Source: a virus
Virus record (IMG/VR): IMGVR_UViG_3300044821_000067
Coordinates: 1 to 37,467 of that record
Reading direction: 5' to 3' (one strand)
Length of the DNA: 37,467 bases
The notes under the pieces are model-generated. The model had not been told where the DNA came from. It ran no database searches and was given only the letters and a program-made list of their open reading frames with translations. A program made the translations under genes and the position numbers. Positions within the stretch are counted from its first letter, which is position 1, and each line of letters begins with the position of its first letter. Of this stretch, positions 2,937 through 30,694 are shown piece by piece.

Positions 2937-3619
2937 CCGCTGCCATCATCCTGGCCTCTCTGTTTGCACTCTCGGCCCATGCCGGCGCTGCCGTGTCGCC
3001 CGAGATGGTTTGCAGCGTCCAGCGAGCAATCAGCCGCCGTCCAGCATGGCCCGAGAGTGAGTGTCGGCGGGTTGCGGCCGCGCTAAACGAGACGCCAAAG
3101 CCGCGCACAGTGGCGGCCATGGCAGTGCTCGAGTCTGATTTTCGCCCCGATGTTGCGGTCGAGGCGAAGGCTGGAACATTCGACGCCGGCTTGCTCGGCG
3201 TCCGTTGCGTGCTCTACCCAGGCAGCAGCGCACCCGCGCGGGGTTTTGGGCCCCGGTCGGCGGGTGATAGCAAGCCCAATGACCTACCCGCGGGCCGGTG
3301 CCAGAACGGGCCGGCTCGTGGGCACAATTTGGTAACCCTCGCCGACCCGGTTACCAACATCCGCGTGGCCGCGCAGATCATGGCCCAGAAGCGGGTGCGG
3401 TTCGGGAAGGACTACCTCTGGCGCTACAACGGCGCGAGCAAGCCCAACGGCTACGCCCGCAAGGTGCGGGTCATCGTGGCGGCCCTGGGCGGCGTGCGGT
3501 TGGCCTCGAAGTGCATGCGTGTGCGGCGGCTGGTGGATCTGATACTGGCGGCTGTGGCACCGCGGATTGTGTCCGTAAAAAGTAGGCCAGTGCCCAAATA
3601 CCTAAGTGGCAACCCATGA
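2933..3619 (+). CDS. Secreted lytic transglycosylase-like endolysin
   Basis: A 228-residue protein starting at GTG 2933, which overlaps the previous stop (GTGA). Residues 1-20 are a signal sequence ending AHAGAA. A lysozyme/SLT-like fold is suggested by 'AAMAVLESDFRPD' with candidate catalytic Glu67, 'DAGLLGVRCVLYPG' in place of the usual GLMQ segment, and 'DPVTNIRVAAQIMAQ...YLWRYNG' matching the helix plus YN/YNG motif of SLT enzymes. It probably cleaves peptidoglycan, either for host lysis or DNA entry; being exported it could act without a pore-forming holin. Codons near the 3' end run through the 30-bp repeat at 3572-3601. The stop overlaps the next start (ATGA). Confidence 0.7.
   Translation: MTAAIILASLFALSAHAGAAVSPEMVCSVQRAISRRPAWPESECRRVAAALNETPKPRTVAAMAVLESDFRPDVAVEAKAGTFDAGLLGVRCVLYPGSSAPARGFGPRSAGDSKPNDLPAGRCQNGPARGHNLVTLADPVTNIRVAAQIMAQKRVRFGKDYLWRYNGASKPNGYARKVRVIVAALGGVRLASKCMRVRRLVDLILAAVAPRIVSVKSRPVPKYLSGNP
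3572..3601 (+). repeat. 30-bp direct repeat, copy 1
   Basis: Identical over 30 bp to 8924-8953, with similarity continuing a few bases further (CTAAGTGG versus TAGTGG). It begins TCCGTAAAAAGTAGG and ends CCCAAATAC. This copy ends 14 bp before the ATPase start at 3616, inside the last codons of the transglycosylase-like gene. It may be a phage promoter or activator site, or a recombination boundary. Confidence 0.9.
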
Positions 3620-5334
3620 AGGCCAACATCCAACTAGCCCCAGGCCTGTCATTTCCAGCAGCCGAGTTTGCAACCGAGGTCGTGGCCTCCCTTGGCGCCC
3701 GTGGCGGCGGCAAGAGCAACGGCGCGGCCGTGGTGGCGGAAGGGCTCCTTGATGCTGGTGTTCAGGTCGTGGTGCTGGACTACGTTGGGATTTGGTTTTC
3801 GCTGCGCCTAGAGCCAGACGGAAAGACCCCATCGCGGTTCAAGATCGTCGTGCTAGGCGGATCTCACGGGGACATCGCCATCGCTCCCACTGCCGGCGCG
3901 GCCGTAGCAGAGGCGCTGGCCATAAGTGGAGCATCAGCCGTGCTCGACATCAGTGGTTTCTCGAAGGGCGATCGTTGCCGCTTCGCTACCGACTTCGCCG
4001 AGGCGTTCTTCGTTGCGAAGAAGAAGCACCCCGGGCCCGTGCAGCTGCTCCTCGAGGAGGCCCAGCGGTTCGTTCCACAGAAGTTGTTCGCCGGCCAGGA
4101 ACGCATGCTCGGAGCGTTCGAGGAGATCGGGGAAGTCGGCCGCAACTACGGGATCGGCCTGCACCTCATCAGCCAGCGCCCGCAGAAGATCAACAAGGAC
4201 GTACTCAACCTGGCCGACACCGTGCTCGGCTACCGAACCCTCGGTGTGCTCGAGCGCAAGGCGATCGGAGAGTGGGTGCAGGAGAAGGGAGCCGCCGGTC
4301 GCGACCGGGTCCAGGACGAGCTGCCAAGTCTCAAGGTGGGCAACGCGATCGCGTGGTGCCCATCGCGCGACCTGTACGGCAAGTTTGCCATTCGCAAGAA
4401 GACCACCTACGACGCCGGGGCGACTCCGGTCCAGGCGCGCGCGGCCGTGCACACCAAGCCCCTCGACCTGGGCGAACTAGAAACGGCCATGGGCAAGGCC
4501 GTTGAAGACGCCAGGGCCAACGACCCAACCGCCCTAAAGGCGGAGATCGCGCGGCTCAAGAGAGGGTTAGAGAAGTCAACCGGAAAACCGCCGGAAGTCG
4601 TGGTGGAAAAGACGGTGGAAGTTCCGGTGGTGCCGCCCGAGTGGATGGACGCGGTCAAGCGGGTGCTGACCAACTTGTCCCGCTCGAAAGTCGAGGTGCT
4701 GGGCGTGGTTGCGCGCGAGATGGACGACGCTGCGGCCGTGGTCGGGAAACTAGTCCACCTGTCCGAGCGGTACAAACCATCCCCTGGCCGCGTGCCCATG
4801 GCGCCGCGCCCGATGCGTGCGCAGTCCGCAGTGGCGCGACCGTTGCGCCCGTCCATTGCCGGGAAAGACGGCGAGGTCGCAAGCGGAGGCCTTCGCCGCA
4901 TGCTCATCGCCCTGGCCCAGCGACCACAGGGGCTCACCAATGCGCAGATCGGAGTGCGGGCCGGGCTGTCCTCAAAGAGCGGAACCTTTGCCACGTATAT
5001 GGGGCGCGCCCGAACGCAGGGGTGGATCGCCGACAACGGACAGACCAGGGTCATCACGGAGGCTGGGCTGGATGCGCTTGGATCGTTCGACGCTCTCCCG
5101 GAGGGTCAGGCACTTGCCGAGCATTGGATCGGCGAGCTGGGCGGTGGGGCATCCCGCATGCTGCAAGCGCTGGTCGAGGCGTATCCCGACAGCCTCACCA
5201 ATGCCGAGATCGGGGAGCGCGCCGGCATCTCGCCGGCATCGGGGACGTTCGCGACGTACATGGGTAAACTGCGCTCGCTCGAACTCGTCACAGGGCGCGG
5301 GCAGGTCCAAGCCTCGGCGGAGCTTTTCGGATGA
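3616..5334 (+). CDS. HerA/FtsK-type ATPase with tandem winged-helix tail
   Basis: A 572-residue P-loop ATPase. Walker A is GARGGGKS at residues 27-34, Walker B LLLEEAQ at 144-150, and SQRPQ at ~186-190 is the sensor typical of HerA/VirB4/DUF87 ATPases. Residues ~300-400 are helical, with a Glu/Val-rich segment. The C-terminus holds two copies of a winged-helix module, LTNAQIG-RAGLS and LTNAEIG-RAGIS, each followed by SGTFATYMG (about residues 425-485 and 510-570). They look like an internal duplication for DNA binding. HerA proteins pump DNA with NurA-type nucleases; no nuclease partner is recognisable here, but RuvC-like and Dam genes follow. The 30-bp repeat lies just upstream. Confidence 0.8.
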   Translation: MKANIQLAPGLSFPAAEFATEVVASLGARGGGKSNGAAVVAEGLLDAGVQVVVLDYVGIWFSLRLEPDGKTPSRFKIVVLGGSHGDIAIAPTAGAAVAEALAISGASAVLDISGFSKGDRCRFATDFAEAFFVAKKKHPGPVQLLLEEAQRFVPQKLFAGQERMLGAFEEIGEVGRNYGIGLHLISQRPQKINKDVLNLADTVLGYRTLGVLERKAIGEWVQEKGAAGRDRVQDELPSLKVGNAIAWCPSRDLYGKFAIRKKTTYDAGATPVQARAAVHTKPLDLGELETAMGKAVEDARANDPTALKAEIARLKRGLEKSTGKPPEVVVEKTVEVPVVPPEWMDAVKRVLTNLSRSKVEVLGVVAREMDDAAAVVGKLVHLSERYKPSPGRVPMAPRPMRAQSAVARPLRPSIAGKDGEVASGGLRRMLIALAQRPQGLTNAQIGVRAGLSSKSGTFATYMGRARTQGWIADNGQTRVITEAGLDALGSFDALPEGQALAEHWIGELGGGASRMLQALVEAYPDSLTNAEIGERAGISPASGTFATYMGKLRSLELVTGRGQVQASAELFG

Positions 5335-5510
5335 TCTGCCGCCTGCTCTGCAAACTCCTCGACCGTTTCGCACCGGTCGCCACGCCCGCGCAATCCGCCT
5401 GCGAGGACTGCCCCGATTCCAGAGCGCTCAAGTGCACCGACAGGCAGGCGGCCACGTGCAAGATCAGGTTGGACGCTATCGAGAGCGCGAAGGGAGTGGC
5501 AGCGCAATGA
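5331..5510 (+). CDS. Small Cys-rich protein
   Basis: A 59-residue protein that fills the space between the ATPase and Dam genes with a 4-nt overlap at each end (ATGA at 5331 and 5507). Six cysteines occur: an N-terminal CRLLC, a central CEDC and two later single Cys about 8 apart. The central and later cysteines could bind one metal ion. No family is recognised. The perfect coupling on both sides argues that it is real despite its size. Confidence 0.65.
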   Translation: MICRLLCKLLDRFAPVATPAQSACEDCPDSRALKCTDRQAATCKIRLDAIESAKGVAAQ

Positions 5511-6322
5511 CCGCGCGCCCGTTCCTGAAATGGGCGGGCGGCAAGACCCAGCTCTTGCCCAAGCTCCTCGCCCACGTGCCGGCGCACTTTGAGACCTACC
5601 GCGAGCCATTCCTAGGCGGCGGCGCTCTCTTCTTCGCCCTGCGGCCAGCGTGCGCGGTCCTCTCGGACGCCAACCGCGAGTTGGTGACCACGTTCCAGGC
5701 CGTGCGGGACAACGTCGAGGAGGTGATCGGACGCCTGCATAGCTTCGCAAAGTTCCATAGCCCGGAGTTGTTCGAGACCTTGCGCAGCGAGACCGGAACG
5801 GGGCTTCCGTTCGACGTCGCTGCCCGGATGATCTACCTGAACAAGACGTGCTTCAATGGGCTCTACCGGGTGAACGCCGCCGGCAAGTTCAACGTCCCGC
5901 CGGACAAGTCCAAGACTGCCGCTGTCATCTGCGACGAAAAGAACCTGCGCGCGTGTGCCGTAGCCCTGGCCAGCGCGTGGATCGAGCCGTGGGATTTTCG
6001 AACGGCCATTGGGCAGGCCGAGTCGGGCGACTTTGTTTACGCGGATCCGCCGTACTTGCCCAGCTCGGAAACCGCGGATTTCACGAGCTACACCGCCGAC
6101 GGATTCGGCCCCGGTGACCACGCCGACCTCGCCCTCGCGCTGACCATCGCCGGATCTCGTGGCGCGCACGTGCTCTTGTCGAGCGCCGACAACCCCACCA
6201 GCCGCAAGATCTACCGAGACCTGAAGCGCGAGAAGGTGAGCGCCCGCCGAAACATCAGCAGCAAGGGTGACGGCCGCGGCGCAGTCGGAGAGCTGCTGTG
6301 CACGTACAAAGGGGATCGTTAA
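5507..6322 (+). CDS. dam: DNA adenine methyltransferase, Dam/D12 class
   Basis: A 271-residue class I N6-adenine methyltransferase. The N-terminal FLKWAGGK (residues 6-13) and EPFLGGGALFF (33-43) bind S-adenosylmethionine, IYLNKTCFNGLYR (109-121) is the family signature, and the catalytic DPPY is at 180-183. Family length is normal (about 270). The start is the ATG at 5507, which gives the canonical N-terminus; the frame stays open upstream but that part is not Dam. It would methylate a short adenine target, GATC being the usual D12 site, for restriction evasion or replication timing. A cytosine methyltransferase lies 3 kb downstream. The stop overlaps the next ATG (TAATG). Confidence 0.95.
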   Translation: MTARPFLKWAGGKTQLLPKLLAHVPAHFETYREPFLGGGALFFALRPACAVLSDANRELVTTFQAVRDNVEEVIGRLHSFAKFHSPELFETLRSETGTGLPFDVAARMIYLNKTCFNGLYRVNAAGKFNVPPDKSKTAAVICDEKNLRACAVALASAWIEPWDFRTAIGQAESGDFVYADPPYLPSSETADFTSYTADGFGPGDHADLALALTIAGSRGAHVLLSSADNPTSRKIYRDLKREKVSARRNISSKGDGRGAVGELLCTYKGDR

Positions 6323-8743: not shown

Positions 8744-8912
8744 CTGCCGGTGCGGCTTGCGCGCGTGCCAGAAGGCGCAGCGCGAGGCTCAGGCGCGACG
8801 CTTGGCCATCATAGAGGCTCAGGAGTCGATCTTCGACGAGCCATCCCGAAGCGCCAGCCTTTCCCGGCCGCTCCTCCTGGTGGCCTACGAGCGCGAGCGC
8901 CAGGCGGCCTAG
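8697..8912 (+). CDS. Possible 71-residue protein with Cys pair
   Basis: Starts at ATG 8697 within the previous candidate. It has CRCGLRAC near residue 20, then a long Ala/Arg/Glu helix. It ends just before the second 30-bp repeat. No family is recognised and the start is uncertain (a GTG at 8667 is in frame). One of the two overlapping small frames here may be spurious. Confidence 0.4.
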   Translation: MGTAGNTTNWSLVQGNCRCGLRACQKAQREAQARRLAIIEAQESIFDEPSRSASLSRPLLLVAYERERQAA

Positions 8913-8923
8913 TTCGGTTTCTT

Positions 8924-8953
8924 TCCGTAAAAAGTAGGCCAGTGCCCAAATAC
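8924..8953 (+). repeat. 30-bp direct repeat, copy 2
   Basis: Exact copy of 3572-3601, 5,352 bp downstream in the same orientation. This copy ends 20 bp before the first base of the tRNA at 8974, just as copy 1 ends 14 bp before the ATPase start. A promoter or activator site is consistent with both positions. Confidence 0.9.
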
Positions 8954-8973
8954 TAGTGGGTGAAGCTACCTAC

Positions 8974-9046
8974 TGCGGGTTCGCCAAGTGGCCAAGGCAT
9001 CGGGCTCATAATCCGACATTCGCTCGTTCGAATCGAGCACCCGCAA
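8974..9046 (+). tRNA. tRNA with CAU anticodon (Met or Ile2 type)
   Basis: A full cloverleaf can be drawn. The acceptor pairs TGCGGGT with ACCCGCA (7 bp), the D-stem is GCC/GGC, the anticodon stem TCGGG/TCCGA (one G-U) with loop CTCATAA, and the anticodon CAT is at 9007-9009. The variable loop is CATTC, the T-stem GCTCG/CGAGC with loop TTCGAAT, and the discriminator is A at 9046. CCA is not encoded. The T1-A72 closing pair and the D-arm GCCAAGTGG..AAGGCA look like bacterial tRNA-Gln, which is unusual for a CAU tRNA. It lacks initiator features, so elongator Met or lysidine-modified Ile(AUA) are the options. Confidence 0.93.
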
Positions 9047-9060
9047 CTTCTGCCGCTACA

Positions 9061-9190
9061 GTCCGGGATAGCCGGACACGCGTGCCAGCACGTATCGGCT
9101 GGCCCGACACCACGGGGCGTAACCTCGTGGGAGTCTCCTAAGTCCCTGGGAAAATCCGCGTGGCCAGGGAACCGCGCCGTGGAGGACGCT
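9061..9190 (+). ncRNA. Hairpin-rich gap, candidate structured RNA
   Basis: The 224 bases between the tRNA and the C5 methyltransferase lack a convincing gene. They contain four closely spaced perfect stems: GTCCGG/CCGGAC (9061-9077), GCCAGC/GCTGGC (9084-9103), CCACG/CGTGG (9110-9130) and TCCCTGG/CCAGGGA (9143-9170). A fifth possible stem starts at ACCGC (9171). High GC makes chance stems common, so this is a candidate only. It could be processed from the tRNA transcript or act as a leader of the methyltransferase mRNA. Confidence 0.35.
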
Positions 9191-9270
9191 CTTGGCACAA
9201 GCGGTGGGATGATGGTTCGCTCGGGGCAGCACCGGGCGGCGGCTTCAATTTGCGCGGATGAGGCGCGAGC

Positions 9271-10908
9271 GTGACCGCCTCGACGGTAAGCCTTTTCTGT
9301 GGCGGTGGCGGCGAGTCGGTGGGCAAGCATCTCGCCCTCGAGGAGCTTGGCATCCCGTCTCGCGAAATTCCCTCCCACGCGATCAACCACTGGGATCTGG
9401 CCGTTGCCACCCATGGCCGCAACCTTCCGTGGATCTCGGTCCACCAAGAAGACATCACACAGGTGACGGCCAAGACCTACGGGTTGAAGCACATCGACCT
9501 ACTGTGGGCCTCCCCATCGTGCGTGCACCATTCTCGCGCCCGGGGCGGGAAGCCGCGCGAGGAACAGCAGCGCAGTCACGCCTGGGAGGTGGTTGACCGC
9601 TGGCTCCGCGTGGCCAAGGTCGACGTGCTGCTGGTCGAAAACGTCTCTGAATTCATGGACTGGGGTCCGCTCGACGAGCACGGTCAGCCCATCAAGGCAC
9701 GCAAGGGAGAGGACTTCCGCGCGTTCGTGGCCGACTTGCGCAAGCTCGGCTACCAGGTCGAGTGGCGTGTGCTGTGCGCGGCCGACTACGGCGACCCGAC
9801 CACACGCCGTCGCTTTTTCCTTCAGGCCGCGCGCGACGGGCACCCGGTCGTGTGGCCAGAGCCCACGCACCACGATCCGCGCAAGGTCAGTGGCGAAGGT
9901 CTCCTGCCCTGGCGCACGGCCGCCGAGTGTATCGACTGGTCGCTGCCATGCAGGTCCATTTTCGACCGCAAGAAGCCGCTGGCCGAGGCTACGCTGCGGA
10001 GGATCGCCACCGGGGTGGTGCGGTTCGTGCTCAACGGCAAGCCGTTTATTGTGAATACGGCCTACGCGGGAACGACCGGACGCGGGCAGTACGTTTACGA
10101 TCCGAAGGATCCGATGCGCACCATCACGTCAGGTGGCGGATTTGGGGCGGTGGTGCCGACCGTCGAGCCGTTCGTCGTGAACTTCCGCGGTGGCGAAGAC
10201 AGCCACATCGCCAGCGCGGCCGGCGGCCTCGACGAACCGCTGCGCACCGTATCGGCGGGCGGGAACCACGCTGGAATCGTCACTCCATTCATCGCAGGAT
10301 TGGCCCACGGAGAGCACGCCGGACGCCATGAACCGCGCGTGGCACCTGCGACCGAACCGCTGCGCACGATCCACGCCGGCGGCAACAACCACGCGCTCGT
10401 GGCCGCGTTTCTGGCGAAGCATTACGGTGGCGGGCCAAACGGTGAATCTCCTCCCGGCCTCAGTCCCAATAGCCCCCTAGGGTCGGTGACGGCCGTCGAC
10501 CACCATGCAGTCGCCAAGGTTGACCTGGACCAGGCCGGCGGGCCGCGCGCAAAGCTAATCGCCGCGTTTCTCACCCACTACTACGGCACCCGCGGCCAGC
10601 ACCAGTCGCCCGATATCCCACTGCACACGGTGACGACCATCGCTAAGCACGGCCTGGTCACGGTCGACATCGATGGCGCGAGCTACGTCATCACGGACAT
10701 TGGCCTGCGCATGCTCGAACCGCGCGAGCTTGCCCTTGCGATGGGCTTCCCCTCCTGGTACCGCTGGGAGAAAGCGGACGGCTCGCCGCTGACCAAGCGG
10801 GACGCGGTCAAGATGATTGGTAACGCATGTCCCGTTGGGACCGTGAAGGCACTCATCAAGGCCGTGGTGCTCGAGCGCCGCGAGGCCTTCGGAATGGTGG
10901 CAGCGTAA
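9271..10908 (+). CDS. DNA cytosine-C5 methyltransferase
   Basis: A 545-residue C5-MTase. Motif I is SLFCGGGG (residues 7-14), the catalytic motif IV is SPSCVHHSRARGGKP with Cys84, ENV (motif VI) follows at about residue 122, and the C-terminus has the family 'LALAMGFP' and 'IGNACPV' motifs VIII-X. Motif IV reads PSC rather than PPCQ, as in some phage enzymes. The region between holds five degenerate units of the form P(L/M)xT(V/I)xxGG (about residues 285-475), an unusually repetitive target-recognition segment. It would methylate cytosines in phage DNA, most likely against host restriction. It starts at GTG 9271; a short upstream frame overlaps this start but is not convincing. The stop overlaps the next start (TAATG). 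Confidence 0.93.
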   Translation: MTASTVSLFCGGGGESVGKHLALEELGIPSREIPSHAINHWDLAVATHGRNLPWISVHQEDITQVTAKTYGLKHIDLLWASPSCVHHSRARGGKPREEQQRSHAWEVVDRWLRVAKVDVLLVENVSEFMDWGPLDEHGQPIKARKGEDFRAFVADLRKLGYQVEWRVLCAADYGDPTTRRRFFLQAARDGHPVVWPEPTHHDPRKVSGEGLLPWRTAAECIDWSLPCRSIFDRKKPLAEATLRRIATGVVRFVLNGKPFIVNTAYAGTTGRGQYVYDPKDPMRTITSGGGFGAVVPTVEPFVVNFRGGEDSHIASAAGGLDEPLRTVSAGGNHAGIVTPFIAGLAHGEHAGRHEPRVAPATEPLRTIHAGGNNHALVAAFLAKHYGGGPNGESPPGLSPNSPLGSVTAVDHHAVAKVDLDQAGGPRAKLIAAFLTHYYGTRGQHQSPDIPLHTVTTIAKHGLVTVDIDGASYVITDIGLRMLEPRELALAMGFPSWYRWEKADGSPLTKRDAVKMIGNACPVGTVKALIKAVVLERREAFGMVAA

Positions 10909-11867
10909 TGGGCAAAGAAACCGGCATAGCTTGGACCGATTCGACGTTTAACCCATGGTGGGGGTGCACCAAGGTCTCCGAGGGTTGCAAGAACTGTTAC
11001 GCCGAGACGTTCGCCAAGCGGTTCGGCGTGCAGTGGGGGGAGGAGGCGAGTCGGCGCGTGTTCAGGCACGGGGGCAAGCACTGGCACGATCCCGTGTCGT
11101 GGAATGCCAACGCCCAGGACGAGGGAGTGCGCCGGCGCGTGTTCTGCGGTTCGATGTGCGACGTGTTCGAAGATGGAAGGCGCGAGGAATTGGAGCCACA
11201 GCGCCGGCGCCTCTTCGACCTCATCGAGGGCACCGAGCATCTCGACTGGCTTCTGCTCACCAAGCGCCCGGAGAATCTGGCCGACATGTTGCCGAAGCAC
11301 TGGTTGCGCAGCCCGCGCTCGAACGTGTGGCTGGGCACCACGGTGGAGAACCAGAAGGCGGCCGACGAGCGGATCCCGATCCTGGTGCATACCCCGGCCG
11401 CTCTCCGCTTCCTGTCGATGGAGCCGATGCTGGAAGCGATTCAGATTCCAACGATGTTCTGCGACACGGAAAAGGTGCTGCGGGACTCAAAGCCCTGGGA
11501 TAACCTGGCTCGCGTTCCCATCCTGGCGCTAGGCGATCTAGTTCAGTGGATCATCGTTGGTGGCGAATCCGGCCCGCGGGCGCGCCCCTTCCACGTCGAG
11601 TGGGCCCGCTCCATTCAGGCCCAGTGCAAGGCGGCCGGCGTGGCGTTTTTCATGAAACAGCTGGGAGCGCATCCCGTGTTTCTCGACGGCTACGACCTAG
11701 ACGACGAGCGGGCGCGGATCATGGACGCCGCGGGAATGAACCCCCTGCAGATCGATCAGGCGGCCAGGTCTGGACTTGTGAGGATGCGCGACCGCGCTGG
11801 CGCCGATCCCTTCGAATGGCCCACAGACCTCCGCACCCAGGAGATGCCCGCGGGGCGCAAGTCTTGA
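10908..11867 (+). CDS. Phage Gp37/Gp68 family (DUF5131), radical-SAM-like
   Basis: A 319-residue protein of the Gp37/Gp68 (DUF5131) family, recognised by 'IAWTDSTFNPWWGC' and a Cys triad CX6CX2C (Cys20, 27, 30), then 'LLLTKRPEN', 'VWLGTTVENQ', 'FLSMEPML' and 'IVGGESGPRARP'. The family is considered radical-SAM-like: the Cys triad should hold an Fe-S cluster, though the spacing differs from CX3CX2C. Its reaction is not established. The start codon overlaps the C5-MTase stop, so the two are co-translated. This suggests a joint role on DNA or RNA bases (inference). The stop lies within the promoter of the next gene (TTGACA begins 11864). Confidence 0.9.
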   Translation: MGKETGIAWTDSTFNPWWGCTKVSEGCKNCYAETFAKRFGVQWGEEASRRVFRHGGKHWHDPVSWNANAQDEGVRRRVFCGSMCDVFEDGRREELEPQRRRLFDLIEGTEHLDWLLLTKRPENLADMLPKHWLRSPRSNVWLGTTVENQKAADERIPILVHTPAALRFLSMEPMLEAIQIPTMFCDTEKVLRDSKPWDNLARVPILALGDLVQWIIVGGESGPRARPFHVEWARSIQAQCKAAGVAFFMKQLGAHPVFLDGYDLDDERARIMDAAGMNPLQIDQAARSGLVRMRDRAGADPFEWPTDLRTQEMPAGRKS

Positions 11868-29257: not shown

Positions 29258-30694
29258 GTGGCTGACGGTATCAAATTCCTTATCGATCTAGACAGTCGCA
29301 CGGCTGGCGCGAATGCGGCCGACACCGCTCTCGGTCGCGTGGAGGCGTCTGCCGATCGAGCCGATGGGCATTTGAAGAGCATGGGGCACCACGCCGAGGG
29401 GCTGAGCCGAGACGTCTTCAAGGCCGACTTTGCCATGGAGGTGCTCAAGAAGAGTGCCGAGCTGGCATGGGAAGGTGTGCATAAAGTCGCCGAACTCATC
29501 AAGGACACCGTCACCGAAGTGGCCGACGAGCGACGCGAGAAGATGGCGATGACCAATCTCCTGGGAGGAGAGGAGGACGCCGAGAAGGCAATCCACTACC
29601 TCGACCGCTTCAGCGAGGCGAGCGAGTTTGGGGAAGCGCGCACCAAGGCGATGGGCATCGAATTGCTCAATGCCGGCTACAGGGGCCAGGAGTGGCAGAA
29701 CGCTCTCGCGGGAATCGCCGATGCGGCATCAATGTCGTCGGACAAGATGGCTGGCGCCGAGGGCGCGCTGTCGTCCTTCATGCGGATGAAGGAAACGGGC
29801 AAGCTCGACGCGCGAATTCTCCGACGCTTGCACCTCAACGTGAAGGACGTGGTCAAGGGCCTCGGCGACTCGCTGGGCATGACCCCGTCCGCCGTGAAGA
29901 AAGGCCTGCTTGAGGGCAGTATCCCGGCGGCCAAGGCCTACGAGACGGTACTCCGCGCGATTGAGAAGAAGACGGGCAAGAGCCTTGGCGAGGCTGGTCT
30001 AACTGCTGGCAAGGGGCTCGAAGCCAAGCTCACGCACCTGAAAGAACTGCCCGAGAAGATCATGAAGTCCGTTTCGGACTCTCCCGGCATGGAGAAGATC
30101 GAACACGGCTTCGATAAACTACTCGAGTCCTTCGATCCCGATAGCACGGGCGGCAAGAAGATGATCTCCGGGCTATCATCCCTCATGGGCAGTGTGGGCG
30201 ACCTGGTGGAAGGGACCGACTGGGACGCAGTCGCCACTCACGTGGGGGACATTGCCTCAAGCATCGGCAAATGGGTGGATCCGCTGGCCAAGGCCGTTGG
30301 TCTGGTCGGAAAGCTGGCCGAGGGCATCCTTGGATTGCCAACCTTTGGTGAGGACGTCGGCGACTGGGTGGCACGCAAGCTGCACCCTGAGCTGAATCAG
30401 ACGCCAACACACGTGCTGGAAGCCCGCGCGCGCAGGCAGGCCGAGTTTGACGCCACAAACGCGGCAGAGTGGCGAGACGTGGATCTGGCTCGCGGGAAGG
30501 GCGAGGGTAAGGCCGGGGCGGCTGGCGGCACCCACATCGAGGGTAAGGCCGAGGTTACGGTGCATGTGCACGGATCCAAAGCCAGCGCCGAGGACATCGG
30601 CCACGCTGCCAAGAAGGGCGTCGAGGCAGGTCTCACCACCGCGCTCGAACAGCAGGCACTGCACGCGGGAACCCGCAGCGCGAGGAAACGCTGA
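29258..30694 (+). CDS. Tape measure protein
   Basis: A 478-residue, mostly helical protein starting at GTG 29258. It opens like tape measures (ADGIKFLIDLDSRTAGANAADT) and contains long Ala/Lys/Glu helices, a hydrophobic stretch at ~330-375 (LVGKLAEGILGLP) and 'DVGDWVARKLHP'. It sets tail length; at about 0.15 nm per residue it predicts roughly 70 nm, short for Mu-like tails. It lies directly after the frameshifted chaperone. Confidence 0.88.
   Translation: MADGIKFLIDLDSRTAGANAADTALGRVEASADRADGHLKSMGHHAEGLSRDVFKADFAMEVLKKSAELAWEGVHKVAELIKDTVTEVADERREKMAMTNLLGGEEDAEKAIHYLDRFSEASEFGEARTKAMGIELLNAGYRGQEWQNALAGIADAASMSSDKMAGAEGALSSFMRMKETGKLDARILRRLHLNVKDVVKGLGDSLGMTPSAVKKGLLEGSIPAAKAYETVLRAIEKKTGKSLGEAGLTAGKGLEAKLTHLKELPEKIMKSVSDSPGMEKIEHGFDKLLESFDPDSTGGKKMISGLSSLMGSVGDLVEGTDWDAVATHVGDIASSIGKWVDPLAKAVGLVGKLAEGILGLPTFGEDVGDWVARKLHPELNQTPTHVLEARARRQAEFDATNAAEWRDVDLARGKGEGKAGAAGGTHIEGKAEVTVHVHGSKASAEDIGHAAKKGVEAGLTTALEQQALHAGTRSARKR

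Follow-up and report, generated by a model that had tools for sequence, protein, structure and literature searches.

A C5-cytosine methyltransferase gene overlapping a DUF5131 gene of predicted radical-SAM fold in a probable accessory cassette of a myophage

Orphan C5-cytosine DNA methyltransferases of the phrog_116 type have relatives in 368 phage records, and CmoX, a phage homologue of the C5-methyltransferases, is a cytosine carboxymethyltransferase in which Arg replaces Asn304 of HhaI (PMC12783734). For the proteins of the DUF5131/Gp37-Gp68 family (PF07505, phrog_2045), the chemistry is undescribed in the papers searched, in which the name DUF5131 is not used either. Their nearest solved fold is that of spore photoproduct lyase, and they match one component of PDC-M41, a candidate defence system that was proposed from genomic embedding and is not validated (PMC10855318). 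The present locus brings members of both families together. The window, that is, the whole stretch of DNA analysed, comprises the 37,467 bases of an IMG/VR virus record, in which a myovirus tail sheath, a portal and a terminase were found along with Mu-like head genes. The features of the gene pair and of the Dam gene in front of it are as follows:

5507 to 6322, plus strand: Dam-family adenine methyltransferase (PF02086, E 8e-47; TIGR00571, E 7e-71)
9271 to 10908, plus strand: C5-cytosine DNA methyltransferase, 545 amino acids, GTG start (PF00145, E 6e-27; phrog_116, E 1e-73; motif alignment)
9520 to 9522, plus strand: codon for residue 84 of the methyltransferase, the cysteine predicted to be catalytic (motif IV alignment; Cys in all aligned relatives)
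10906 to 10910, plus strand: TAATG overlap, with base 10908 common to the methyltransferase stop and the DUF5131 start (sequence and list of open reading frames)
10908 to 11867, plus strand: DUF5131/Gp37-Gp68 protein, 319 amino acids, ATG start, predicted radical-SAM-type fold (PF07505, E 2e-72; AlphaFold2 model; structural matches)
10965 to 10997, plus strand: codons of C20-x6-C27-x2-C30, putative [4Fe-4S]-binding cysteines (alignment of 61 sequences)

The methyltransferase and the gene overlap

The window methyltransferase has the PF00145 domain and all of the motifs I, IV, VI, VIII and X of C5-cytosine DNA methyltransferases, which, aligned with its relatives, read FCGGGG, SPSC, ENV, TRRR and GNACPV, respectively. 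The full set of catalytic motifs is shared with the phage orphan enzymes of phrog_116, from which it differs in having PSC instead of PPC in motif IV, as is the case throughout its own subfamily. With the motifs intact, the best-supported activity is that the enzyme would methylate phage cytosines, and, by analogy with other phage methyltransferases, it may act as an orphan enzyme that self-methylates the phage DNA against host restriction. Asn304 of HhaI, which we take to be the Asn of the motif X GN, is retained by the window enzyme, whereas CmoX has Arg at this position. A CmoX-type carboxymethylase is disfavoured because this Asn is present, and the identity was dropped, the CmoA-like family also being absent from the window proteins scanned.

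The earlier note on this DNA had described a start codon shared with the methyltransferase stop and a wider base-modification theme in the phage, comprising a Dam gene and a nucleoside deoxyribosyltransferase-like gene. The shared base is present, and so is the Dam gene, upstream of the methyltransferase; the deoxyribosyltransferase-like label gained no support, as the gene at 2532-2936 had zero matches in Pfam, NCBIfam and PHROGs at E<=0.01. Other genes of base hypermodification or downstream tailoring were not found among the window proteins scanned.

It should be noted that overlaps of 1-4 nt occur at about 13 of the 26 plus-strand junctions examined in the window, and that the 1-nt overlap at 10908 is seen again at 30694 and 31458. 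Overlapping genes are thus the rule in this genome, and for this reason little weight is placed on the overlap of the methyltransferase and DUF5131 genes alone. The one-base overlap would lead to co-translation of the two genes, but genes are usually packed in this way here. The record opens, at 3-171, with about 14 tandem copies of a 12-nt unit (CTCGCTGSGGGM).

The predicted fold of the DUF5131 protein

The window protein is a full match to its family, with the CX6CX2C motif and the family blocks FNPWWGC, VFCxSM, LLLTKRPEN and GGESG; it differs from the family in that its gene overlaps that of a C5-methyltransferase and is not accompanied by TcmP. The three cysteines C20, C27 and C30 are invariant in 61/61 sequences of an alignment composed of the window sequence and 60 viral loci. 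In the AlphaFold2 model (mean pLDDT 88.6), they are situated between the first strand (E17-19) and the first helix (H31-39).

For the comparison with solved structures, realignment with VIA-align was preferred over the Foldseek ranking, which on its own gave nothing at E<=0.001 and placed generic TIM barrels with large rmsd on top. After realignment, spore photoproduct lyase was the best match (Z 13.8, rmsd 3.2, 209 residues), followed by viperins (Z about 10-11) and, at Z about 9, by biotin synthase (BioB), NosL and others; a radical SAM methyltransferase and lipoyl synthase were among the further matches, and the best 18 rows (Z 13.8 to 8.8) were radical SAM enzymes throughout. An NCBIfam scan yielded a weak match to radical SAM mobile pair protein A (rSAM_mob_pairA, E 1e-8). 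Motif conservation, the VIA-align ranking and this weak match together mean that a radical-SAM fold is well supported as a prediction, and the "radical-SAM-like" label that the earlier note had given to the protein was borne out by the conserved cysteines and the predicted fold. The three-Cys loop and the partial or full TIM barrel of radical SAM enzymes are both present in the predicted model, with a spacing, CX6CX2C, that is non-canonical.

Sequence searches of the PDB with the DUF5131 protein gave zero relatives with phmmer, and a profile search gave mostly KaiC rows, which were taken as chance (E 0.1 or more). With hhalign, the DUF5131 profile and one spore-photoproduct-lyase-like protein had a short match at the Cys motif (probability 0.7%). 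As in DUF5131, three Cys of spore photoproduct lyase lie in the loop that joins the first strand to the first helix, and a Tyr comes next, but the spacing is CX3CX2C in the lyase and the identity is about 10%. C80 of DUF5131, at the end of strand 2, is more than 90% conserved and is not reliably alignable to the H-donor Cys that follows strand 2 in the lyase. An identity as spore photoproduct lyase itself was rejected both by sequence, with TIGR04070 unmatched in NCBIfam at E<=0.01, and by the cysteine spacing. The control genome of Thermotoga maritima also has a DUF5131 gene that scores above the cut-off of the family and is possibly a source of a stable homologue.

The [4Fe-4S]/SAM chemistry and the nucleic-acid substrate are both inferred. 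Most likely, DUF5131 would use SAM-radical chemistry to repair or modify a nucleic acid or nucleotide. That the product is an altered nucleotide, as in viperins, and that polymeric DNA or RNA is not attacked at all, is very improbable: viperins do rank second among the structural groups (Z about 10.9), but spore photoproduct lyase, at Z 13.8, is clearly closer, and no kinase or nucleotide-salvage partner was prominent in the neighbourhood analysis.

An accessory cassette and its linkage across phages and bacteria

Comparison with related records placed two further features around the gene pair:

8911 to 11850, plus strand: accessory cassette of 2.94 kb, consisting of a leader of about 300 bp, the methyltransferase and DUF5131 (blastn/tblastn synteny, flank alignment)
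8915 to 8953, plus strand: direct repeat of 39 nt, at the left end of the cassette (repeat search; other copy at 3563-3601; 0 expected by chance)

A relative with a 90% identical terminase (L196, record G090) is syntenic with the window over a region that starts with genes ahead of Dam and extends to the terminase, and it retains the Dam gene, but blastn, tblastn and flank alignment all indicated that about 32 bp stand in place of window positions 8911-11850. Neither the C5-methyltransferase nor the DUF5131 family was found in the whole record. The exact 2.9-kb gap therefore indicates that the pair is an accessory cassette and behaves as one block in this lineage. The two copies of the repeat at its left edge are 92% identical, with 30 nt perfect, and are the only occurrences; the copy at 3563-3601 lies at the left end of another stretch that L196 lacks, which carries a HerA-like gene, and an exact search of viral contigs gave no match to the repeat. 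It is perhaps a recombination boundary, or a promoter that travels with accessory genes. The HerA/FtsK-like ATPase gene itself (3616-5334) is missing in L196, where the lysozyme-like and Dam genes adjoin.

Other relatives point to separate histories of the two genes. One record (G051) contains a methyltransferase 97% identical to that of the window (L082), and the DNA of window positions 9270-10901 is 89% identical, with the homology starting and stopping at the ends of the gene. The 89% match of this kind against L092 points to a recent exchange of the single gene. The DUF5131 gene of the same record is 10 kb away from the methyltransferase, its product is 35% identical overall, and DNA-level similarity is found only near its 3' end. 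In another relative, with a 76% identical terminase (L195, record G092), a DUF5131 gene (31% identical) is close to the terminase, and the 16-kb contig contains no C5-methyltransferase. The two proteins would seem to be functionally independent. It is thus probable that the locus is a cassette of a Mu-like-headed myophage in which an orphan methyltransferase is combined with an independently acquired radical-SAM-fold enzyme of a nucleic-acid type, the action of which would be independent of 5-methylcytosine.

The linkage was examined in flanks of 5 kb around 95 viral and 80 bacterial DUF5131 loci. A C5-methyltransferase was found at 9 of the 95 viral loci (about 9%), always within about 1.2 kb and on either side, and at three of the 80 bacterial loci (4%), adjacent in none; PF00145 was present anywhere in 12 of 50 whole viral records bearing DUF5131. 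On a DUF5131 tree of 184 rows, adjacency to a methyltransferase (14 rows) required 12 changes versus 13.6 after shuffling, and adjacency to TcmP (74 rows) required 10 versus 57.8; the former is nearly as scattered as chance, and the latter is inherited. The neighbouring methyltransferases have motif IV of the types SPSC, SPDC, SPEC, FPC and SPC, and therefore do not constitute a single co-evolving pair with DUF5131. A conserved pairing was thus not found, and the linkage is ordinary and occasional. Small genes of the ASCH or DUF3850 type were repeatedly observed near phage DUF5131 genes (L003, L089, L250).

Nevertheless, a possible functional link is favoured by the clustering within 1.2 kb, by the gain or loss of the two genes as one block in this lineage, and by the Gordonia phage Bakery, in which DUF5131 again has a one-base overlap, with a different C5-methyltransferase. 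The placement of all C5-methyltransferases at 1.2 kb or less within 5 kb has a p of about 2e-4 under uniform placement (8 independent loci), and a C5-methyltransferase is near 0 of 44 Dam loci (Fisher p 0.04 versus the DUF5131 loci), both tests being modest and after the fact. Dam served as the control bait because the terminase and the RuvC-like resolvase of the window yielded too few loci (3 and 5). Among cultivated phages, Dfl-JY45, Zirinka and RcapNL have the methyltransferase 570-750 bp upstream of DUF5131, Phayonce has one about 2 kb away, and most others have none; this sample was partly hand-chosen, Bakery and Dfl-JY45 having been picked for their methyltransferases, and does not represent a rate.

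These results bear on the two-step modification proposed in the earlier note, in which the methyltransferase would make 5-methylcytosine and DUF5131 would alter its methyl group by radical chemistry, shielding the phage DNA. The radical-SAM fold, the one-base overlaps of the window and of Bakery, the clustering within 1.2 kb, the presence or absence of the cassette as a unit in one comparison, and the methyltransferase fold of TcmP, the regular bacterial partner of DUF5131, are in line with such a pathway. However, no C5-methyltransferase is nearby at about 90% of the DUF5131 loci in phages and 96% of those in bacteria, just 12 of the 50 viral contigs encode one anywhere, the linkage is scattered on the tree with methyltransferases of unrelated types, the methyltransferase is also found apart from DUF5131, and no downstream tailoring genes were found in the window. 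The note had itself named a general lack of linkage between DUF5131 and methyltransferases as an outcome that would speak against its proposal, and this is largely what the viral and bacterial loci revealed. With scattered linkage, a methyltransferase that travels alone and no other hypermodification gene found among the window proteins scanned, the two-step pathway is unsupported, and we regard it as quite unlikely.

TcmP and the role of the DUF5131 family

The regular bacterial partner of DUF5131 is TcmP (TIGR04474), which adjoins it in 59 of the 80 bacterial loci (L093-L172) and lies within the flank in 60; it is found in 14 of the 95 viral loci and is absent from the window. It also ranks first in the NCBIfam tally of DUF5131 neighbours (13 of 113, dcm accounting for 2). 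The TcmP model (pLDDT 85.0) matches Trm1 (Z 14.2) and RlmJ (Z 13.6), with Foldseek E values down to 2e-5, and TcmP is by fold a predicted class I SAM methyltransferase. In the Gordonia phage BaxterFox (L256), a DUF5131 frame is located on the plus strand at 4722-5747, opposite annotated minus-strand genes 39-41, with TcmP on the minus strand in convergent orientation; the annotation in the public record looks wrong here.

In PADLOC, DUF5131 matches PDC-M41B (E 4e-51) and PDC-M30B (E 2e-50), and TcmP matches PDC-M41A. The window protein thus corresponds to the B component of the TcmP-DUF5131 pair, but the A component is missing and a C5-methyltransferase stands beside DUF5131 instead, so that the locus does not belong to PDC-M41. 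Phage DUF5131 might be half of this system, excluding rival phages or interfering with the system of the host. The matches of both proteins to PDC-M41 and their adjacency in the bacterial loci would favour such a role in defence or counter-defence; nevertheless, it is unlikely, since neither the window nor the majority of phage loci carry TcmP, and the defence role of PDC-M41 itself stems from genomic embedding only (PMC10855318).

The locus adds one more example to families already known, and the joint role of DUF5131 and TcmP is the more interesting question. While the two-step base-modification story is set aside for this locus, a testable picture is gained of a widespread, uncharacterised family of radical-SAM fold with a regular partner, TcmP, that is a predicted class I methyltransferase. 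A more general view, in which DUF5131 would be a radical-SAM modifier of nucleic acids that works with methyltransferase-fold partners, with TcmP in bacterial defence and with various C5-methyltransferases in the counter-defence of some phages, is rather doubtful; if true, it would represent an undescribed route to hypermodified bases. If TcmP and DUF5131 modify nucleic acids, this would account for a catalogued anti-phage candidate and for the presence of one of its halves in phages.
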